From Deltaproteobacteria bacterium (GTDB taxonomy: Bacteria > SAR324 > JACQKK01): a stretch of 64,000 nucleotides of DNA. The notes below the pieces were generated by a model, which was not told the origin of the DNA, searched no databases, and saw only the letters and a program-made list of their open reading frames with translations. The position numbers and the translations under genes were made by a program. Positions 51,711-62,113 of this stretch are shown here, one piece after another (position 1 is the first letter of the stretch; the number at the start of each line of letters is the position of its first letter). The DNA is taken from the NCBI GenBank assembly GCA_029858505.1, contig JAOUEW010000002.1:230851-294850 (forward strand), given 5' to 3'.

Positions 51711-54422
51711 CTACTTGGCCAGGGCTTTTTCGTCGGATTTTTTCCGCTCGTCTTCTTCCCGTGATTCATCCTCGCGGCGGTCCGCCTTGCGGCGGTTGGA
51801 GGGGGCAGACTTAAACAACCCTGGGGCTTTCACCACGTTGTTGCGGCCCTGTTCTTTGGCGATGTACAGGCATTTGTCGGCGGCCTGCAGCAGGCCTTCT
51901 CCCGTTTCGGCGTCTTCGTTAAAGGTGGCCACCCCAAAACTGGCCGACACCATGCCTAGGGGCTGCTTCTCGCCGTTGGGGAAGGGGGTTTCCATCAGGG
52001 TGCGGCGGACCTTTTCGGCAATCACCACGGCCATGTCTTTGGCGGTTTCTGGCAGCACCACCACGAACTCCTCTCCACCGTAACGGGCGGCCAGGTCAGA
52101 GGCCCGCACGGCGTGGTTCAGCACCCTGGCCACCCCCCGCAGCACTTCGTCTCCCAGCTGGTGGCCGTTCGTGTCGTTGTAGTGCTTGAAGTTGTCGATG
52201 TCGAGCATGATCAGCGAGCAGGGCTTGTGGGTCTGGCGAGAGTAATTGACCTGGGTTTCCAAAAAGCCGTCGAAGTTTTTGCGGTTGGCCAGTTTGGTCA
52301 ACCCGTCGGTGAAGGCCTGCTTTTGGGCCTGGTCCATGTTTTGATGCAACGACTCTTGCCGCCGATGAGATTGAATCAGGGAACTGACCTTAAAGCGGAT
52401 GTCGAAGATGGAATAGGGCTTGGCCAAAAAGTCGGAAACGCCCCGCTCGGCGGCGATGGTGCGCTCGGCAAAATCGGTATACAGGCTGCTCACCGCCAGC
52501 ACGGGGCACACGTGGCGCCGGTCGGCCACCAGCGAGGCCACCAAGCGGTGGTTGCCCCATCCGGGTTCGTCTAGTTTGGGGTCCATCACCACCAGGTCGG
52601 GGCGGAAGTCCTCGTAGTTCTCCAAAAACTCGAAGGGGTCATCGGTTTCCAGCAGCACCGCGTCGTGCCACAGGTGCTCGATCACCCCGCGGATAATCAG
52701 CCGATCCATGTCTTGTTGGTCCAAAATCAGCACCCGGTTGGGGCGGTCTTCCCCTTCTTTTTGGGTGCGGGGCAGCAGGATAGACACCCGGGTGTGGTTG
52801 CGGTCCCGCAGGAACTGCAGAGAACCCTGGTATTGAGAAATCACTTTGCGGGCCAGGGGCAGGCCAATCAGAATGCCCATTTTGCCGTCTTCCGAGGAAT
52901 CTCGCCCCACCGAGGTAAGGGCCGGGCCAATGTAGCTGATCTCCAGATGGATCTGCTGGGCTTTTTCCATCAGCGACCCGCGAATTTTCAGGGGGATGCC
53001 CGGCTGGGCCGCCACGATGGCCTGCTCGAACAACAGATTGAACATCACCCGAAACCGGTCCGGGTCCCCCACCAGCAACAGGGGCTTTTTGGGGAATTCC
53101 ACTTCAATCGGCACGCCTTTTTTGGTGGCCCTAGCCCTGGTTTCTTTCAACACATCGGTGACCAGGTCTCCCAGGTTCAACTGGGTTTGGGTGCTGGCGG
53201 CATGGTTTACTTGCAGGTCAATCAGGTGGTTGATGTTTTCGGTGATGCTCTTCAGGTATCCCGCTTGTTCTTGGATCACTTCCAGGTGCTGCTGGGCGAT
53301 GTTGTCGTGGCGCAGGGTGTCGCGCTCGATGAGTTTGTTGACGTTGGAAACGATTTTTCGGATGGGGGAAGAAAGCTCGTCGGAAATAACGGTGAGGCTT
53401 TCCATTTTCAATTTGTCCGACCGCTGGAGTTCCTGGTAGGTGGCTTCCAGGTCCATTAGGGCTTTGCGAATTTCTTCGTTCTTGGTGGTGATGGCCTGCT
53501 CTTGGGCTTTTTGCAACGAGATATCGTTCAGCAGCAGGGCCACGGCCAAAAGCTCGCCGTCGGTGCCCAAAATGGGAGACACCGTGGTGTAAAAATAGAT
53601 GGGGTGGTCATCGGTTCCGCGAAAGACCCATTCGCCCTCCCACCCTTCCCCCAGTTTGTGGCGGGCGAAATCTCCCATGTCGAATTCTTTGAACAGCTCC
53701 GACAACCGGCGCCCAAGGGGGTTTTTAGAAACCGAATTGAAAAAATGATTGGCCGCGGGGTTGATGCGCTGAACGATACCCACCGGGTCGGTAATCAGCA
53801 CATAGTTCCGGCTGGTTTCCACTACCTTGGAGTACAGCAGCACTTCGTTCAGCCGTTCGGTGACTTCTCCCTCCAGCCGCATTTTGCTGCTGGACAACTC
53901 CTGGGCTTGGCGCACGGCGTCTTCATACAGTTTGGCCCGCAGAGAGGTCTCTTGCAGTTTGGCGGTCATGATGTGGGCGAAGGCCGACAGCAAATGGGCG
54001 GCCTGAATCGGCTTTTCGTTGATGGATTTCACCACCAGCGACGAAATGCGGATCAGTTGAGCGGGGCGTTCGGTGACCACATCGGCGGAACGGGGCTTAG
54101 AGCTGATCAGCGACAGCTCGCCAATCACGGACCCCAGGGTGTTGATGCGGATGATGAACTTGCCATCGGAGCGGACGGCCAGAGAGCCTTCCAGCAGAAA
54201 ATAGATATCTTCATCCACCTGACCTTCGCGGATGATGGTGTGCCCTTTGGGCACACTCATCCAAACGCCTTGGGCCAACACGCCTTGCAGCACATCCCGG
54301 CCCATGGTGTGGAAATAGGGACTCTGAATCAGGAGGGAGACACACTCCTCCAGCAGAACGGGGTCTTGATTCAGGTTTTGTTCCTGCACGGTCATGTGGT
54401 TTTCGCTTGAAGCAGGTGACAT
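51711..54422 (-). CDS. cNMP-binding/PAS/degenerate kinase/receiver/GGDEF signalling protein
   Basis: A 903-residue soluble protein with five modules. A cyclic-nucleotide-type domain (about 30-150: VPKGHTIIREGQVDEDIYFL, GSVIGELSLI), a coiled coil, a PAS (about 195-300), a kinase-like region (about 335-555), a receiver (about 570-690) and GGDEF (about 715-860). The H-box reads VISDELSSPIRK: Asp (D348) replaces the phosphoacceptor His, and the N-box has NLLFEQAIVAA, so the kinase core looks inactive. The receiver has LDQQDMD, an Asp in VVMDPKLD and FLAKPY, so phosphorylation by another kinase is possible. GGEEF (782-786) is intact with an RASD inhibitory site. The ATG at 54395 is also possible. 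A likely diguanylate cyclase responding to several inputs. Confidence 0.93.
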   Translation of the reverse strand: MSPASSENHMTVQEQNLNQDPVLLEECVSLLIQSPYFHTMGRDVLQGVLAQGVWMSVPKGHTIIREGQVDEDIYFLLEGSLAVRSDGKFIIRINTLGSVIGELSLISSKPRSADVVTERPAQLIRISSLVVKSINEKPIQAAHLLSAFAHIMTAKLQETSLRAKLYEDAVRQAQELSSSKMRLEGEVTERLNEVLLYSKVVETSRNYVLITDPVGIVQRINPAANHFFNSVSKNPLGRRLSELFKEFDMGDFARHKLGEGWEGEWVFRGTDDHPIYFYTTVSPILGTDGELLAVALLLNDISLQKAQEQAITTKNEEIRKALMDLEATYQELQRSDKLKMESLTVISDELSSPIRKIVSNVNKLIERDTLRHDNIAQQHLEVIQEQAGYLKSITENINHLIDLQVNHAASTQTQLNLGDLVTDVLKETRARATKKGVPIEVEFPKKPLLLVGDPDRFRVMFNLLFEQAIVAAQPGIPLKIRGSLMEKAQQIHLEISYIGPALTSVGRDSSEDGKMGILIGLPLARKVISQYQGSLQFLRDRNHTRVSILLPRTQKEGEDRPNRVLILDQQDMDRLIIRGVIEHLWHDAVLLETDDPFEFLENYEDFRPDLVVMDPKLDEPGWGNHRLVASLVADRRHVCPVLAVSSLYTDFAERTIAAERGVSDFLAKPYSIFDIRFKVSSLIQSHRRQESLHQNMDQAQKQAFTDGLTKLANRKNFDGFLETQVNYSRQTHKPCSLIMLDIDNFKHYNDTNGHQLGDEVLRGVARVLNHAVRASDLAARYGGEEFVVVLPETAKDMAVVIAEKVRRTLMETPFPNGEKQPLGMVSASFGVATFNEDAETGEGLLQAADKCLYIAKEQGRNNVVKAPGLFKSAPSNRRKADRREDESREEDERKKSDEKALAK

Positions 54423-54706: not shown

Positions 54707-55804
54707 TTAACGCTCGTCCCAGCCAAAGGTCATCACCTGCCCCACCGTTTGGGCGCCCCCCAACAGCATCACCAGCCGGTCCACCCCCAGCGCCATTCCA
54801 GCGGCGGGGGGCAGGCCTTCCTCCAGGGCCGCCAAAAAGCGTTCGTCCAGGGGCAGGGGGGGCATTCCCAGCCGCTGGCGGTGTTCCAGGTCGGCCAGGA
54901 AGCGGCGGCGCTGTTCGGTGGGGTCGGTCAGTTCTTCAAACCCATTGGCCAGTTCCACCCCGGCGATCAGCCATTCCATTCGTTGGGCGGTGTGGGGCTG
55001 ACCGGGGGTCAGTCGGGCCAAGCTGGCCAGGGGGGCGGGCCAATGGGTGACCAGCAGGGGGGCTTCCAGGCCCAGCCGGTGCTCCAAACGGTTCCAAAGC
55101 CGGAAGAAAGCCTGCTCAAAGTCCAACGGAAGGTCTTCTGTCATGCCAGCCTGCCGGGCGGCGGCCAGCAGTGCCGGGGCATCTACCGCTCCGTTTAAGG
55201 CGATTCCCAGGTGCTGGCGGAACAGGGCGTCCACGGTGACCTGGGCCATGGGGGGGGCAAGGTCTACCTCCACCGGTTGAGAGGACCGGACTCCACCCGC
55301 GGGCAGGTGCCAATGGCCGGGCACCACCTTCAGCCAGCGGCCGTCGCGGGCAGCCAGGGCCAGGGGGGCCAGCCTGGTGGTCAGGGCTTCCAGGTCGGCG
55401 GCCAGGGCATCCAGCCCCTCCCCGGCCCGGTACCACTCCAGCATGGTGAATTCTGGGTTGTGCAGGGGGCCCATTTCCCCCCCACGGAAAACCGGCCCCA
55501 GGCGGTACAGGCGGGGAAATCCCCCCACCAGCATTCGCTTTAGTTGAAACTCAGGGGAAGTGATCAGGTACTCCTGACCGCAGGAAAGGGGGGAAAATTG
55601 CGGCTCGGGGCTGGGGGCTTTCACCAGGGCGGGGGTGTCTACTTCCAGAAAACCCTGGCTGTGAAACCAAGCCCGGATCTCTCGGAGGATGTCTCCCCGC
55701 AGTTGCAACAGGGTTTGGCGGGTGGGCAGGCCAGCGCCCGCCGGTTGGTTCCAGCGGCGGGCGTCTCCCTGGGGCAAGGGGCGGGGGGGGAGGGAGGATG
55801 GCAT
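54707..55804 (-). CDS. epmA: EF-P lysine ligase (EpmA/PoxA/GenX)
   Basis: A lysyl-tRNA-synthetase paralogue without anticodon domain that attaches (R)-beta-lysine to EF-P. 365 residues from the ATG at 55804; a TTG at 55816 is in frame. Class II motifs: FLEVDTPALVKAPSPEPQF, PEFQLKRMLVGGFPRLYRLG then FRGGEMGPLHNPEFTMLEWY (motif 2), and GMALGVDRLVMLLGGA (motif 3). The short C-terminus with no anticodon-binding part separates it from LysS. It follows efp by 21 bp on the same strand, which fits the ligase-substrate pair. epmB (lysine 2,3-aminomutase), which supplies beta-lysine, is not in the window. Confidence 0.95.
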   Translation of the reverse strand: MPSSLPPRPLPQGDARRWNQPAGAGLPTRQTLLQLRGDILREIRAWFHSQGFLEVDTPALVKAPSPEPQFSPLSCGQEYLITSPEFQLKRMLVGGFPRLYRLGPVFRGGEMGPLHNPEFTMLEWYRAGEGLDALAADLEALTTRLAPLALAARDGRWLKVVPGHWHLPAGGVRSSQPVEVDLAPPMAQVTVDALFRQHLGIALNGAVDAPALLAAARQAGMTEDLPLDFEQAFFRLWNRLEHRLGLEAPLLVTHWPAPLASLARLTPGQPHTAQRMEWLIAGVELANGFEELTDPTEQRRRFLADLEHRQRLGMPPLPLDERFLAALEEGLPPAAGMALGVDRLVMLLGGAQTVGQVMTFGWDER

Positions 55805-55825
55805 GGTGCCGGGCAAGGAATGGGG

Positions 55826-56389
55826 TTATCCCTTCACCCGTTCCACGTATTCTCCGGTGCGGGTGTCGATCTTGAGCTTGTCGCCGGTTTCCACGAACAG
55901 GGGCACGCTGATGATGGCGCCGGTTTCTAGGGTGGCGGGCTTCTTGGCGCCGGTCACGGTGTCTCCCTTCACGCCGGGGTCGGTTTGGGTGACCAGTAAA
56001 TGCACAAAGTTGGGGAAGGACAAACTGACCGGCTGGCCCTTAAACAGCAGCACCATGATGACCATGTTCTCTTGCAAGAACCGGTAGTCTTCATCCACCA
56101 CTTTTTCCGGAACGGCGTATTGCTCGAAGTTCCCTTGATCCATGAAGTGGAAGCCCTCTTCATTTTTATACAGGAACTGCATTTCCCGTTCTTCCATGTC
56201 GGCGGGCTTGAGTTTTTCGCCGGATTTGTAAGTCTTATCAAGCACCGATCCGGTAACCAGGTTTTTGATCCGGGTGCGGGTGAAGGCGTTGCCTTTGCCA
56301 GGCTTGACGAATTGGAAGTCCACCACCACATAGGGGTCGCCGTCAATTTCAACTTTCAGCCCTTTGCGGATATCGGAAGTTTCGTACAC
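55826..56389 (-). CDS. efp: Translation elongation factor P
   Basis: Relieves ribosome stalling at polyproline stretches. The GTG at 56389 gives the canonical YETSDIRKGLKVEIDG start and 187 residues, with AAGGA 6 nt upstream; an ATG at 56449 adds 20 non-homologous residues. The modifiable lysine is K32 in FVKPGKGNAFTRTR, in the tip loop and in the same context as the beta-lysylated K34 of E. coli EF-P. GDTVTGAKKPATLETGAII and VDTRTGEYV appear in the C-terminal domains. Paired with epmA downstream. Confidence 0.96.
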   Translation of the reverse strand: MYETSDIRKGLKVEIDGDPYVVVDFQFVKPGKGNAFTRTRIKNLVTGSVLDKTYKSGEKLKPADMEEREMQFLYKNEEGFHFMDQGNFEQYAVPEKVVDEDYRFLQENMVIMVLLFKGQPVSLSFPNFVHLLVTQTDPGVKGDTVTGAKKPATLETGAIISVPLFVETGDKLKIDTRTGEYVERVKG

Positions 56390-56499
56390 GGAAGGTCCTT
56401 GGGTAGGGGTGTGTTCAAGGGTGACCCTATATTCACCCATAAATTTCACGGGCTTTCAATGGGTATTTTTGCTTGGGGCCAATCTGGGGTTTGCTTGGA

Positions 56500-57147
56500 T
56501 TATTGGGGTTGAAAGGCCCCAGACCCGTCGAATCCGTTGCATAATTCCAGGGGTTTTCCCGGCAAGGTGGGCTTCCAGCCCACCTCTACGTCTTGGGCGT
56601 TCAACTGCCGCCGGATTTCTCGAAACAGCTCAAAGCTGTCTCCCGTGACCCAGAAAAAGTAGTAAAACCGCTGGCGGGGAAACTCTTTTTGGAAGCGGCT
56701 CCAGCGGCTGCCGGGTTGTTGGGCGGCCAGCCAGGTTTCTCCGGCCTGGGGGCGGGGAACCATTTCTAGGCAGTACACATGGTTGGTCACGGGAAAAAAA
56801 CGGATGGACATTTCGTCTTGGGTGAATTCCAGGGGGTATTGTTCTCCCTTGCCGGTGTGGGCGGCCAGCTTGGTGAACATGGGGCGAAGGTCTAGGGCCA
56901 ATACGCGGTTCCCCCGAATAAAGAAATACACCGGGCCTTTGTGGGTGGGGTGAGACCAGGGCACATCCACCAGCACTGGGGGGGCCTCTTGGGGAGAGGA
57001 GGTGTTTTCTCCGCTGCCAGCTCCCTCGTGCATGGCCAGCAGGGCCATGAACACCGCCAAAATGATGAGAATCCCCACGTTGTTGGTGACAATATCCACC
57101 AGGGAATCAAGGCCAATCAGGGTGTGTTTGTCTTTGCGGCGGCGCAT
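56500..57147 (-). CDS. ExbD/TolR-like protein, first of two
   Basis: A 215-residue protein. A single N-terminal helix carries the proton-site Asp: D18 in LDSLVDIVTNN, followed by VGILIILAVFMALLAM. In ExbD/TolR/MotB stator subunits that Asp conducts protons together with the ExbB-type partner. The periplasmic region (about 40-215) is unusually long and has an aromatic-rich segment (RQRFYYFFWVTG) and no peptidoglycan-binding motif. Coded 4 bp from the second ExbD-like gene, in the operon order exbB-like, second, first. The ATG at 57147 is chosen over 57210, which would overlap the other gene. Confidence 0.78.
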   Translation of the reverse strand: MRRRKDKHTLIGLDSLVDIVTNNVGILIILAVFMALLAMHEGAGSGENTSSPQEAPPVLVDVPWSHPTHKGPVYFFIRGNRVLALDLRPMFTKLAAHTGKGEQYPLEFTQDEMSIRFFPVTNHVYCLEMVPRPQAGETWLAAQQPGSRWSRFQKEFPRQRFYYFFWVTGDSFELFREIRRQLNAQDVEVGWKPTLPGKPLELCNGFDGSGAFQPQ

Positions 57148-57151
57148 GGGT

Positions 57152-57757
57152 TCAGCCCGATAGGTTGCGGTAGGGGATTTCCCAGCCTTCCAGCATGGGT
57201 TCAAGCCCAACCTTCAGGCGGCTGGTGGTTTCCAGCAGATAGGCCGCTAGGTCGTAGGTCTCGGTGCCGTCGGAGAACACCAGCAGAATGGGGTAGGATT
57301 CCTTGCCCTGGGACCTCCGCCAGCGGATGTTGTCCAGCTCGATGTCTTGCAGCTGGCGGGTAAACGAGTGATCGAAGGCGCTTTCGTTTTGAATCATGCT
57401 TTTCAGCACCAGCCATAGTTGAAAGCGGTCGGCCCCCCGCCCCAGTTGGCGCATGCCTTCGGCTTCCAGGGTTTTCACCAAGCGGGCTTCCCTCCGCAAG
57501 GCGTCGAGGCTGAACTGCACGGGCTTTCCCTGGGGAGAGTGGATAACCAGTCGGTCCTTTCGGCATTCCACCAACACTGGCTGCACGTATTCCGGGGCGC
57601 CGACCCAGCGCACTTTCACCGGCCTGGGGCGCTCGTGGGCCGAAGACTGGGCCTTGCTGATCATCAAAAAGGTGATGGCCAGGAAGGAAAGAATGCCCAT
57701 GGTGTTCAGCAGAACACTAAGAAACGGGAACAGGGATACCGGATTCCGGTGGCGCAT
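57152..57757 (-). CDS. ExbD-like protein lacking the membrane Asp, second of two
   Basis: A 201-residue protein of the same architecture as its neighbour: a short positive N-terminus, one helix (SLFPFLSVLLNTMG then ILSFLAITFLMI), and a periplasmic domain of about 160 residues. At the position of the proton-carrying Asp it has Ser (S14 in FPFLSVLLN), so it cannot take part in proton transfer. The periplasmic domain includes LWLVLKSMIQNESAFDHSF and a C-terminal FSDGTETYDLAAYLLETTS. It starts 9 bp downstream of the ExbB-like gene's stop. Confidence 0.75.
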   Translation of the reverse strand: MRHRNPVSLFPFLSVLLNTMGILSFLAITFLMISKAQSSAHERPRPVKVRWVGAPEYVQPVLVECRKDRLVIHSPQGKPVQFSLDALRREARLVKTLEAEGMRQLGRGADRFQLWLVLKSMIQNESAFDHSFTRQLQDIELDNIRWRRSQGKESYPILLVFSDGTETYDLAAYLLETTSRLKVGLEPMLEGWEIPYRNLSG

Positions 57758-57765
57758 GGGAGAGC

Positions 57766-58884
57766 TTATTCCGCCGAGGGGTCGGCGGCTGAACGAGGGG
57801 GCCGGGGGTCTCCCAGGCCGTCGGTAAAGTCTTTAATCAGGTGTTGGGCGCCTTCCATTTGGCTGGAGAGCATCTGGGTTTTCAGGGTTAACCCTTGAAC
57901 CACCGGCTCCATTTGCCCCAGCCAAGTTTGAGAAAGCCGCACCAGGCGCTCCAGGTGGTCGTTGTAGGCTTCGGCCACCGGTTCGGCAGAGGGGTGCAGG
58001 TGCAGGTTGGGCATGACCTGCCCCAAGCAAAATTCTTCCGCGGCCATCAGCAGTTCTTCTTCATCGCGTTGCAGCAAAGAAGCCGCCAGCATGACTGGAA
58101 TGACCAGCACCAGGGCCACGAAGGTGGTGTTGAAGGCCACCGCCAGCCCAGAGGTCACCCCCCCCAGGGCGGTGCGCATTTGGGTGGTAAACTGGGCGCC
58201 GCCCTCGGCGGTTTGGATGAAGGAAGAAAACTCAGCCACGGCGTCGGCAATCCCCAGCACGGTGCCAATGAACCCCAAGATGGGAATGGCCCAAATAAAC
58301 ACGTTCACGATGGCATAGGCGCTTTCCATCTTCCGCAGGTCAATTTCTCCCTGATAGCTGAGCAGACCGCTCAGGCCGTCTTTTCCTGGCATGCCCCGGG
58401 CATCGTGCACCATGCGGGTCACCCGGCGGAAAAAGACCGAGTCACGGTAGCGGCCGCGCACCGAGGCCCCCAGAATCCGGTCCAGTTCTTCCAATTGGGC
58501 ATCTAGGGTTTTGGCGTAAATTCCTGGCGCCAGCAGGGCGGTGACTTCCTTGCTTTGAAAGGCTTGGCGCACGGCCACTTCTTGGCGGAAGGCCCGCCAC
58601 ATGAAGAACACGGTGAACAGGCTCCACAGGGTCAGCCACAAAATGGTTTGCGAGACCCAGTTGTCGAACAATCCGAACACCCATTTGCCCTCCAGCAGGG
58701 GCATGGGAAACACCTCGAAGATCACGGCGGTGGCCACCAGGGCCAGAAAAAACCCCTTTACCAAGCCCATCCGGTCAAACCCCCGCTCTTCTCCGGGAGA
58801 ATGCGTGGGGCGGCGGGAGCCGCCCGTCAGACGGCCAAGGCGCCCAAGGGCGGCGGAAAGAAACGAAGCGCGGGAAGTGTTCAT
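57766..58884 (-). CDS. MotA/TolQ/ExbB-family proton channel
   Basis: A 372-residue polytopic protein. It starts at the ATG at 58884; 58926 is in frame. Helices at about 42-60 and 75-95, then a cytoplasmic region (about 96-200), then the family's double helix: IVNVFIWAIPILGFIGTVLG and GLAVAFNTTFVALVLVIPVM, where ILGFIGTVLG and GLAVAFNTTFVAL are the conserved MotA/TolQ/ExbB blocks. A long C-terminal coiled tail follows. It forms a unit with the two ExbD-like proteins downstream. Upstream, only 46 bp separates it from fliQ on the same strand. Confidence 0.9.
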   Translation of the reverse strand: MNTSRASFLSAALGRLGRLTGGSRRPTHSPGEERGFDRMGLVKGFFLALVATAVIFEVFPMPLLEGKWVFGLFDNWVSQTILWLTLWSLFTVFFMWRAFRQEVAVRQAFQSKEVTALLAPGIYAKTLDAQLEELDRILGASVRGRYRDSVFFRRVTRMVHDARGMPGKDGLSGLLSYQGEIDLRKMESAYAIVNVFIWAIPILGFIGTVLGIADAVAEFSSFIQTAEGGAQFTTQMRTALGGVTSGLAVAFNTTFVALVLVIPVMLAASLLQRDEEELLMAAEEFCLGQVMPNLHLHPSAEPVAEAYNDHLERLVRLSQTWLGQMEPVVQGLTLKTQMLSSQMEGAQHLIKDFTDGLGDPRPPRSAADPSAE

Positions 58885-58929: not shown

Positions 58930-59199
58930 TTACCGGACGATCTGGGGGATCATCCGAAACACGTTTCGGGTGAAAGTGGTGATGGTATCGAGCAGCCAGG
59001 GAAAGGTGACCAAAATGGCCAGCATCACCCCAATCATTTTGGGAATGATGGCCAGGGTCATTTCTTGAATTTGGGTGACGGCCTGAAACAGCGAGACCGC
59101 CAGCCCGATCACCAGGGCCGCGGCCAGGGGGGGCAACGACAGCAAGAAGGCCACCCACATGGCCTCTCGCCCAAAGTTGATCACGAATTCTTGGGTCAT
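58930..59199 (-). CDS. fliQ: Flagellar export protein FliQ
   Basis: An 89-residue two-helix component of the flagellar type III export gate. It matches the family start FVINFGREAMWVAFLL and the conserved middle LAVSLFQAVTQIQEMTL and IIPKMIGVMLAILVTFPWLL. Helices at about 16-37 and 50-72. Encoded 68 bp downstream of fliP, in the classical order. fliR, which usually follows, is missing; the ExbB-like gene comes next. Confidence 0.95.
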   Translation of the reverse strand: MTQEFVINFGREAMWVAFLLSLPPLAAALVIGLAVSLFQAVTQIQEMTLAIIPKMIGVMLAILVTFPWLLDTITTFTRNVFRMIPQIVR

Positions 59200-59267
59200 G
59201 GGCGGGTTCGGGTTGAACGGTTGGGTGTAGGGCCGAGTGGTCTACGGGTTGTTTTGCTGGCGGTTGC

Positions 59268-60113
59268 CTACCCGCCCCGCACCATGAAACTTTCGGCCAA
59301 GGATCCAATGATCAGGTTCCAGCCATCCACCAGCACAAACAGCATTAATTTGAGGGGGAGGGATATCATGACCGGCGGCAGCATCATCATCCCCATGCTC
59401 ATCAACACCGAGGCTACCACAAGATCCACCACCAGAAAAGGAATATACAGAATGAACCCGATTTGGAAGGCGGTTTTCAACTCGCCGATCATGAAGGCTG
59501 GCACCATCACGTAAAACGGAACGTCGGACACGTTTTTGGGCCGGGGGATGTTGGCCAGCCGGATAAACAGCGCCAAGTCTTTTTCCCTGGTAAACCGCCC
59601 CATGAATTTCTTCATGGGATCGGCGGCTTTGTCTAGCGCTTCGGATTGAGAGATGCGTTTGTCGAGATAGGGCTTCAGGGCGTGTTCGTTCACGTCGTTC
59701 CAGGTGGGCTGCATGATGAAGAAGGTGAGGAACAACGCCAACCCGGCCAGCACCTGGTTGGGGGGGGTTTGCTGGGTGCCCAGGGCCTGGCGCAGAAACG
59801 CCAGCACAATGATGATGCGGATGAACGAGGTGGTCATGATCATGATGGCCGGTGCCAGGGTGAGCACCGTCAACAGAAACACCACCTGCAGGGTAGAGGC
59901 CACCTGATCGGGGGAGTTGGCCTTTCCCACCGAGATGTTGATGCCGGGAATGGGGGTTTGGGCCAGGGCCGCCGGGGTGAACAACCACAACGATAGCAAC
60001 ACGATTCCAGCCAGGGTACCGGTCAGCCAAAGCCAAGGGGGCCCTGCCCGGTGAGGGGGGAACACACGGCTGGTGAAGAAACGGAAAATGGCGGCGATAG
60101 AGGATGGGATCAT
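59268..60113 (-). CDS. fliP: Flagellar export protein FliP
   Basis: A 281-residue export-gate core protein with a cleavable-looking signal (about residues 29-51, GTLAGIVLLSLWLFTPAALA) and four further helices. Diagnostic blocks are LAPAIMIMTTSFIRIIIVLA, LRQALGTQQTPPNQVLAGLALF, ENRPK-type VPAFMIGELKTAFQIGF, and MSMGMMMLPPVMISLPLKLM. The stop at 59268 leaves 68 bp to fliQ. The start at 60113 is 3 bp after the fliO stop. Confidence 0.96.
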   Translation of the reverse strand: MIPSSIAAIFRFFTSRVFPPHRAGPPWLWLTGTLAGIVLLSLWLFTPAALAQTPIPGINISVGKANSPDQVASTLQVVFLLTVLTLAPAIMIMTTSFIRIIIVLAFLRQALGTQQTPPNQVLAGLALFLTFFIMQPTWNDVNEHALKPYLDKRISQSEALDKAADPMKKFMGRFTREKDLALFIRLANIPRPKNVSDVPFYVMVPAFMIGELKTAFQIGFILYIPFLVVDLVVASVLMSMGMMMLPPVMISLPLKLMLFVLVDGWNLIIGSLAESFMVRGG

Positions 60114-60116
60114 GGG

Positions 60117-60986
60117 TTATTTCATGGGCTTCAGTCGGCGGATTCGTTCCCGCAGGGCATCGGCAAAGCGTTGGGACCGGTCTTTCCCCGAACGGGTTAG
60201 GAGGGGGGAAGAAGGCAAGGGGGTTTCCGGGGCCAGCAGGTTGCCCCCAGAGACATCCTCAGCATGGCCGGAATCCCCCAGGCGGGTCAAGAAGGAGATT
60301 TGCTGAGGGGTGACCCCCAGTGCTACCCGTTCTCCGTCGATGTCTAAAATGACCACCCGCTGGCGGGGCCCCAAGGCAAAGGAACCCAGGTAATGGATGG
60401 GCACCCGCCCAGAGCGGGGGGTGATTCGCCCGGCCAATACCTTGTTATAAAAAAACACCATGCCATACAACACCCCCAGCACCACCCCCAGGGAAAGCAC
60501 CATGGTGAACATGGTTTTGGCCCAGGGAATGTCTTCTCGTCCCAAGTGGGGCTCGTCCGTTAAAGCCCCTGGTTCCGTTAGGGGGCTGTCTGAAGGTAGG
60601 GGGCTGTCTGAAGGGGGTTGACTGGCGGAGGGGGGCAGTTCCGAGAGCAGACGTTGATTTTCCGGAAGGACCGTTGGTCTGGGGGCATCGGCCTTCACGG
60701 TCATCCCTGGGCGCACGGCCACCCGCGCCAAGTCATTCTTCACCTCCACCGACGCTTGGTTTTTCACCGATAGGGTGGGGGGGCGGTCCACGGTTTGGCT
60801 AAAACGCAGTTGATACAACTCCCCATCGGGGATGGAGAATCCCTTGATTTCCGTGAGTGGCCGGGTGAACCCCTGCCCCAGGGCTGGATTCTGCCAGGTT
60901 CCCATCAGCACCCCCAATACCGTCGATAGGGCTGCGTACCATAAGGCGGCGGGGGGGATGCGGATCGACATGGGGGGGAAAGCCAT
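60117..60986 (-). CDS. fliO: Flagellar biosynthesis protein FliO, with long periplasmic extension
   Basis: A 289-residue protein from the ATG at 60986; 60971 and 61055 are alternatives. N-terminal signal-like helix (ALWYAALSTVLGVLMGTW), a periplasmic domain (about 35-100) that resembles an AMIN-type beta domain (IPDGELYQLRFSQTVDRPPT), a Pro/Ser linker with a perfect 6-residue repeat PSDSPL twice, one helix (about 168-188, MVLSLGVVLGVLYGMVFFY), and the cytoplasmic FliO region (VPIHYLGSFALGPRQRVVIL, then GVTPQQISFLTRLG). FliO assists FliP assembly. FliO is usually 100-150 residues, so the extension is unusual. 38 bp after the fliN stop. Confidence 0.85.
   Translation of the reverse strand: MAFPPMSIRIPPAALWYAALSTVLGVLMGTWQNPALGQGFTRPLTEIKGFSIPDGELYQLRFSQTVDRPPTLSVKNQASVEVKNDLARVAVRPGMTVKADAPRPTVLPENQRLLSELPPSASQPPSDSPLPSDSPLTEPGALTDEPHLGREDIPWAKTMFTMVLSLGVVLGVLYGMVFFYNKVLAGRITPRSGRVPIHYLGSFALGPRQRVVILDIDGERVALGVTPQQISFLTRLGDSGHAEDVSGGNLLAPETPLPSSPLLTRSGKDRSQRFADALRERIRRLKPMK
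60579..60614. repeat. Perfect 18-bp tandem duplication inside fliO
   Basis: TAGGGGGCTGTCTGAAGG is repeated exactly at 60579-60596 and 60597-60614. In frame it duplicates the hexapeptide PSDSPL in the linker of FliO. Units of 18 bp keep the frame, so copy number could change without breaking the gene. Confidence 0.9.
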
Positions 60987-61023
60987 GGGGGGCCTGGGCA
61001 GAATGAAAAGGCCGAGAAAAGGT

Positions 61024-61461
61024 TTACAGCAGGGCCATTCGGTCGTGGGGGTCAATGACTTCGGTAATTCGTAGGGCGAATTTTTCGTTCACCACCACCA
61101 CTTCTCCCCGGGCCACCCGCTGGCCGTTGACCAACAGGTCCAGGGGTTCTCCCACCAGCTTGCCTAACTCGATGATGGAACCGTTGTTGTAATTCAGCAG
61201 TTCGTCGATGTAGGCATTGCGGCGGCCCACCTCTACGGTGACCTCCAGGTTCACGTCCATCAGATAACTGATGTCCATCCCCTCGCCCCCGGCGTGGGCT
61301 TTGGCCGGGGCGGCGCTCCCGCCCATGCCGGGAAACACTTCCTCGGAGGGAGCGGAGGGGGATCCGCCTGCTGGGCTATCGTCTTTGATTTCTCCTTCTA
61401 GCTCCGACCAGTCGAGGTCTTGGAGGTTGTCGAAGGAGTCGAAATTGACATCATCGGCCAT
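61024..61461 (-). CDS. fliN: Flagellar motor switch protein FliN
   Basis: A 145-residue C-ring protein. The ATG at 61461 has GAGGAA 7 nt upstream. The N-terminal 60 residues are acidic, Pro/Gly/Ala-rich and probably disordered; the C-terminal SpoA-like domain is MDISYLMDVNLEVTVEVG, RNAYIDELLNYNNGSIIELG, EPLDLLVNGQRVARGEVV and KFALRITEVI. This is the conserved FliN fold. fliM, usually next to fliN, is not here; fliL precedes it by 85 bp. Confidence 0.94.
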   Translation of the reverse strand: MADDVNFDSFDNLQDLDWSELEGEIKDDSPAGGSPSAPSEEVFPGMGGSAAPAKAHAGGEGMDISYLMDVNLEVTVEVGRRNAYIDELLNYNNGSIIELGKLVGEPLDLLVNGQRVARGEVVVVNEKFALRITEVIDPHDRMALL

Positions 61462-61546
61462 GGGTTTTTCCTCGCGGTTCTGGTGGGTACTTCTGGGCCC
61501 AGATGGGATGACGCAGGAAACGGTGCAAAACCCGTGCAATTCCAGA

Positions 61547-62113
61547 TTATTGAATAATAAATTCTGTCATCAGCACCCGTTTGATGGGCTGCCGGTCCTC
61601 CCACTCCACATCCTTGGTGGGCAGCAGGCTTTCAATTTTCTTTTCCAGCTGTTTTCGCAAGACTTCCCGTTCGGCAGGGTCGCGCAATTGCTCGGCGGTT
61701 TTCACCTGTAGTTCCGATAGAATCATGTCTTTCACCAGGGGCATTCGCTGGGTGAAGTACTCCACCACCTTCGGCGCGTGCTTTTCGCAGATCATCAGGG
61801 AGATTTCGGTTTTCAGGTGGTGCCGGCCATCGGCCAGGTTGACCACAAAGGCGGGGGTGATGGGCAGATAGGCCAGCATTTCGCTGGCGCACATGCGCTC
61901 ATCCAACACAATGTTCGGTTTGGGGGTATGGCCACCTCCCCCTTTGCCGCCTTCTCCCTCGGCGTCACCGTGAAGGAAATACATGGATGCGGCAATGCCC
62001 CCTCCAATCAACACCAGGGCTACCACGGCGATCATGATGATTTTTTTGATGGAGCCGCCCAAATTCATGCCGCCACCTCCTTTGCTGTATTTGACCTCGT
62101 TGACTTCGGCCAT
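61547..62113 (-). CDS. fliL: Flagellar basal-body-associated protein FliL
   Basis: A 188-residue bitopic inner-membrane protein at the stator. Cytoplasmic N-terminus with a Gly run, one helix (IIMIAVVALVLIGGGIAASM), a Gly-rich linker, then the periplasmic domain with the conserved segments FVVNLADGRHHLKTEISLMI and MILSELQVKTAEQLRDPAER and the terminal VLMTEFIIQ. It heads the flagellar string. The gap to typA (119 bp) contains GGAAGTATTTCACTTCTTCC, an inverted repeat, as a possible leader. Confidence 0.92.
   Translation of the reverse strand: MAEVNEVKYSKGGGGMNLGGSIKKIIMIAVVALVLIGGGIAASMYFLHGDAEGEGGKGGGGHTPKPNIVLDERMCASEMLAYLPITPAFVVNLADGRHHLKTEISLMICEKHAPKVVEYFTQRMPLVKDMILSELQVKTAEQLRDPAEREVLRKQLEKKIESLLPTKDVEWEDRQPIKRVLMTEFIIQ

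Follow-up and report, generated by a model that had tools for sequence, protein, structure and literature searches.

A conserved MotA/ExbB-type gene trio encodes one aspartate-bearing and one non-acidic rotor-type subunit and may form a motor with a single proton site

In a 64,000-nucleotide stretch of a SAR324 genome (the window, that is, the whole stretch of DNA that was analysed), we found a gene set coding for one MotA/TolQ/ExbB-type protein (B) and two single-helix rotor-type subunits, one of which (D) has the conserved aspartate of ExbD and TolR in its single N-terminal helix and the other (S) a serine at that position. B-S-D is probably a 5:1:1 version of the 5:2 motors in which the rotor is a heterodimer and one of its subunits is proton-active, and its best reading is that it energises an uncharacterised envelope task. 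Membrane proton motors of the MotA/ExbB kind drive nutrient uptake and swimming, and nature may here have built a motor that runs on a single proton site instead of the two of the known motors.

The three genes and the residues at their proton site

The three genes are closely spaced on the minus strand in the order B, S, D, with fliL, fliN, fliO, fliP and fliQ directly upstream of B (58930-62113, minus strand; Pfam for fliN, O, P and Q, and neighbour survey) and efp after the trio. B (57766-58884, minus strand) codes for a MotA/TolQ/ExbB-type protein of 372 residues, S (57152-57757, minus strand) for a non-acidic subunit of 201 residues with the helix start LFPFLSVLL, and D (56500-57147, minus strand) for a subunit of 215 residues with the helix start LDSLVDIVTNN, S and D being assigned by hhalign, AlphaFold2 (AF2) and family alignment. 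B and S are separated by 8 bases, S and D by 4 bases. The start of D was taken as the conserved ATG at 57147; the TTG at 57210 in the open reading frame list is not conserved and overlaps S.

Two other features of the window were recorded. An elongation factor P-like gene and then a stand-alone lysyl-tRNA-synthetase-like gene (Pfam tRNA-synt_2, EpmA-like) occupy positions 54707-56449, a pair that suggests EF-P lysylation. A protein of 903 residues (51711-54422) contains cyclic-nucleotide-binding, PAS, response-regulator and GGDEF domains above the Pfam cut-offs, with weak HisKA/HATPase matches.

B of the window scored 38.2 bits against the Pfam MotA_ExbB model (PF01618), above its curated cut-off of 22.9 bits, and B of Symploca 25.2 bits. 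The pore motif of B, WAIPILGFIGTVLGI ... VTSGLAVAFNTTF, contains invariant threonines, and T208, T244, T253 and T254 are invariant in a cross-phylum alignment of 17 sequences. B is predicted to form a pentameric proton-channel ring, the pore of which these threonines would line. No Pfam, NCBIfam or PADLOC family was matched by S or D, PHROGs likewise gave nothing credible, and neither did PDB sequence searches with S, D and B. With the Pfam ExbD model (PF02472), none of the S or D loci of 52 genomes was recovered at E <= 0.1. The initial annotation of the operon as ExbB plus two ExbD-like subunits overstated the membership of the two partners, which the Pfam ExbD model misses throughout these genomes.

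The equivalence of the two positions was established by profile-profile alignment of D (sequence MRRRKDKHTLIGLDSLVDIVTNNVGILIIL) and S (sequence MRHRNPVSLFPFLSVLLNTMGILSFL). The S family aligned with the D family at 98% probability (E=1.5e-13), the helices being ungapped with Ser14 of S (codon 57716-57718, minus strand) opposite Asp18 of D (codon 57094-57096, minus strand). Against a profile of 15 ExbD/TolR proteins of the same phylum, S gave E=5.9e-5 with FPFLSVL on TPLIDVI, which puts Ser14 where ExbD/TolR/MotB have their proton-carrying Asp, and a second S profile gave E=1.6e-4. D gave E=1.3e-3, a modest match limited to the helix, with SLVDIV on PLIDVL and Asp18 falling on the essential Asp of ExbD/TolR. 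FliL, used as a single-helix control, did not match any of the three profiles (E=0.61, 0.1 and 0.076). Ser14, Asp18 and the ExbD/TolR Asp share one column, and the reading first made from the DNA, that D keeps the Asp (LVDIVTNN) and S has Ser (FPFLSVLLN) at the equivalent place, is borne out by the alignments. An acid elsewhere in the helix of S would have spoken against it; the helix has no acidic residue. The ExbD-type Pro, three residues ahead of the site, is kept in S.

In the SAR324 alignments, the site is Ser in 16/16 S and Asp in 12/12 D proteins, and because of this invariance the difference is conserved and not due to chance. Nearly all D proteins have a second Asp at position -4 (DSxxD; Asp14, codon 57106-57108, minus strand, in the window), one helical turn before Asp18, which may cap the helix or belong to the proton path.

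AF2 monomers were obtained with a pLDDT of 88 for S (helix 10-41) and 82.5 for D (helix 13-41), and Ser14 and Asp18 are both near the cytoplasmic start of the long helix. The alignment of S with the ExbD profile runs from the helix into the ExbD periplasmic domain, and the strand order of the AF2 models is compatible with it. Since Foldseek searches of the S and D monomers against the PDB gave no match at E <= 0.001, the two lines of evidence for an ExbD-like fold of the periplasmic parts are the profile alignment and the strand order. Unusually large periplasmic domains in place of the ExbD tail had been proposed; the domains are indeed larger than in ExbD, but that of S can be aligned into the ExbD periplasmic domain and is for this reason better called an ExbD-like domain with inserts than a replacement.

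Occurrence in SAR324 and in other phyla

The phylum was covered by 52 genomes. Of the 41 that belong to the order, 39 have D and 36 have S; the 11 others have neither, and the distribution of B follows this pattern. Genomes of the order that lack one of the genes are mostly incomplete; the clearest exception is a genome of 89% completeness (G040) with D and a TPR protein but no S or B. In the neighbour survey, the window's family has the order fliL..Q-B-S-D wherever the contig permits: the fliL-N-O-P-Q synteny of the window recurred in 8 of the 9 further genomes, and in the ninth the contig breaks off within B. In another family (f2), four genomes carry B-S-D away from flagellar neighbours, and in most of the others D is at a separate locus, usually between a TPR gene and a gene that is RelA/SpoT-like by its sequence, B-S being then followed by another TPR gene with a signal that reads as lipoprotein-like. 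D is likewise unlinked from B-S in the marine genera, as in most SAR324 genera, yet it is retained. That D has been kept although the linkage was lost speaks for a functional connection of D with B-S.

In two f2 genera, genes for a MoxR ATPase and DUF58/vWA proteins were observed a few genes after B-S-D (L080:11500-13416 and L078). They are reminiscent of the vWA transducers that have been linked with TolQ-like motors (PMC12204202).

A TPR protein may be connected with the trio. In most genomes of the window's family, the gene after D codes for a TPR protein with a likely single helix, in several of them followed by a PrsW-type protease gene, and in sister genera the TPR-PrsW pair is directly after D. 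In the window genome, the TPR gene and a gene with likeness to PrsW proteases are side by side on contig C2 (L264:3187-5582), unlinked from B-S-D. Strong matches to the TPR protein were found in 37/41 genomes of the order; the other 11 genomes gave only weak TPR matches. In G130, a genome of an unrelated family, S-D lies on one contig, and the remainder of D is found with TPR and PrsW on a second contig that has D sequence in common with the first; the TPR proteins are similar (E=6e-10, a likeness that is partly repeat-driven). The TPR protein is a putative effector partner.

B, S and D recur in several phyla including Cyanobacteriota and Planctomycetota, usually in the order B-S-D. The genome scan with the S profile found the set in Symploca and Gomphosphaeria (cyanobacteria), in Gemmatales, in another planctomycete and in a Hydrogenedentota and a WOR-3 bin. 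When 331 genomes outside the phylum were screened, the D profile matched 6 and the S profile 8, and all 6 D genomes were among the 8; one of the two S-only matches was marginal. The trio is not a local quirk, since it occurs both in the SAR324 order and in other phyla. The initial annotation had proposed a survey of whether the Asp and Ser genes occur together in other genomes; the pair recurs across phyla and is co-inherited even when unlinked.

In the 38 adjacent S-D pairs from all fetched loci, D had Asp in 38/38, and S had Ser in 26, Ala in 10 and Thr in 2; FPF-type S helices were non-acidic in 67/67. These counts are biased by the seeding of the S-survey profile with non-acidic sequences. 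In the planctomycete survey, 19 of 199 genomes had S-type helices, the weakest of these being close to the threshold. The D-profile screen, free of the seeding bias, showed one exception, a divergent second planctomycete module (L207) with Asp in both subunits, and the asymmetry therefore does not hold throughout the wider family.

Divergent S-type helices from planctomycetes have the sequences FAFQD and FAFLD (L207:4754-6498 of genome G186; L242 of genome G400), the Pro of FPF being replaced by Ala and an Asp being present. The FPF and FAF helix classes may mark one-Asp and two-Asp motors, respectively.

A tree was built from 71 columns after removal of the Asp/Ser column; with so few data, many forks are open. 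D proteins of all phyla form one clade (100/98.6), S and D are set apart from ExbD, and S as one clade was not rejected (p-AU 0.28). The single D clade, together with a single S clade that is not rejected, fits one old duplication.

A possible one-carboxylate axle and the alternatives

A natural heterodimer with one proton-active subunit had been suggested from the DNA at the outset. The equivalent positions, the non-acidic S, the Asp of D and the co-inheritance all agree with it; the heterodimer itself, its stoichiometry, the proton path and the step size we infer from homology, residue equivalence, conservation and co-occurrence. Five B chains would form a ring with one D and one S helix in the pore as a two-helix axle. 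At the height of the conserved Thr ring of B, the only protonatable carboxylate would be Asp18 of D; S would be neutral at the site (Ser, or elsewhere Ala or Thr) while keeping the helix, the Pro and the ExbD-like periplasmic end. Protons would load and unload the single Asp as the axle passes the five B subunits, so that a turn would comprise five steps of 72 degrees, against ten of 36 degrees for a two-Asp axle. The differing periplasmic parts of S and D, with the TPR protein, would transmit the force to a target in the envelope. For the broader proposal, an ancient, obligate, multi-phylum class of B5:D1:S1 motors with one Asp per axle and half the proton steps, derived by a single ExbD-like duplication and loss of the carboxylate, we see an even chance.

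S and D could also act unpaired, with D in an ordinary B5D2 motor and S as a proton-dead homodimer that blocks unused channels or competes as a regulator. In the solved 5:2 motors, homodimers are the norm (PMC9389320, PMC12215075), and the separate loci of the marine SAR324 genera could allow the ratio of the two to be set separately. However, it is S and not D that stays linked to B in these genera, and a dispensable blocker would be expected to be lost more often than the driver, yet the co-occurrence is nearly 1:1; the gaps of just 8 and 4 bases in the window also speak against separate roles, and we consider this explanation unlikely. Hardly probable at all is an ordinary two-carboxylate motor whose second carboxylate comes from Asp14 of D (LDSLVD) and not from S, since Asp14, although conserved in almost every D protein, lies right where the predicted helix (13-41) begins, as would suit a helix cap, and is missing from the type seen in G364 and G230 (SFSFLD, HFSFLD).

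The place after fliQ, conserved in 8/9 other genomes of the family, would suggest a flagellar part, either an accessory stator or an export-gate energiser. This is highly improbable: FliP is present but the module absent in all 11 genomes of the SAR324 families f3 and f4, G040 carries D but lacks FliP, family f2 has the module apart from flagellar genes, and the module is carried by cyanobacteria, which are not known to have flagella. The window genome also encodes its own MotA-MotB elsewhere, on contig C14, where the sole MotB plug match of the genome adjoins MotA, as well as a separate TonB/ExbB/ExbD-like set. Because both are encoded separately, B-S-D is neither the flagellar stator nor the TonB/ExbBD-like set. 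A stator or export role was rejected as the main reading on the FliP of the 11/11 module-less SAR324 genomes and the separate MotAB, and the heterodimeric envelope motor is retained as the preferred one.

A third uncharacterised motor pair was observed near flagellar genes of the same genome (L004; contig C14, about 37.8 kb), where a MotA/ExbB-like protein of 484 residues adjoins an ExbD-like single-helix protein that keeps the Asp (GAIIAFIDLLFLLVG). The pair also adjoins a FliG-like start.

Relation to known motors

The known 5:2 motors have a pentameric ring with conserved Thr and two axle helices, the Asp residues of which are in different surroundings (PMC9389320, PMC12215075). Rotation models of ExbBD, TolQR and MotAB assume two Asp in asymmetric surroundings, one per axle chain (PMC12215075). 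No report of an ExbD/MotB heterodimer with one Asp, or of an Asp-less partner, was found in the open-access literature.

With ExbB-ExbD of the Ton system and TolQ-TolR of Tol-Pal, B-S-D has in common the MotA/TolQ/ExbB ring protein. S and D, like ExbD and TolR, are profile-alignable single-helix partners with a basic N-terminus and a periplasmic domain, the Asp being found in D and the Pro-x-x-site in S. They differ in being two diverged partner genes, one without the Asp, with periplasmic inserts, and no TonB or TolA gene was recognised beside B-S-D. In contrast to the MotAB flagellar stator, B-S-D has no partner gene of the MotB plug/OmpA type. ZorA-ZorB of Zorya also includes a MotA/ExbB-like protein, and B of cyanobacteria and planctomycetes has a long C-terminal tail as ZorA does; a Zorya identity was nevertheless rejected, as PADLOC matched ZorA in the window set only at E=0.028 and ZorB not at all. 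The vWA-linked TolQ-like motors (PMC12204202) may overlap with the planctomycete modules seen here; section 8 of that text mentions no missing Asp in the pair, and no vWA gene was recognised next to the modules of SAR324 family f1.

The uncharacterised envelope motor would be common to cyanobacteria, planctomycetes and the SAR324 clade, with axle proteins outside any Pfam family. A known counterpart in gene content is AglR-AglQ-AglS, the gliding motor of Myxococcus, which likewise comprises one MotA-like and two different MotB/TolR-like proteins, their heterodimerisation being given as unknown (PMC9389320). AglQ and AglS differ from the present pair in that the review gives both a conserved Asp, while S is without one (PMC9389320). 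A natural one-Asp axle, if true, would show that a motor can do without the second Asp and would settle which chain is active, opening proton stoichiometry, step size and symmetry to tests by structure and mutation. If S and D do share an axle, B-S-D differs from the 5:2 motors with an Asp on each axle chain in that S is Ser, Ala or Thr in 38/38 adjacent pairs.
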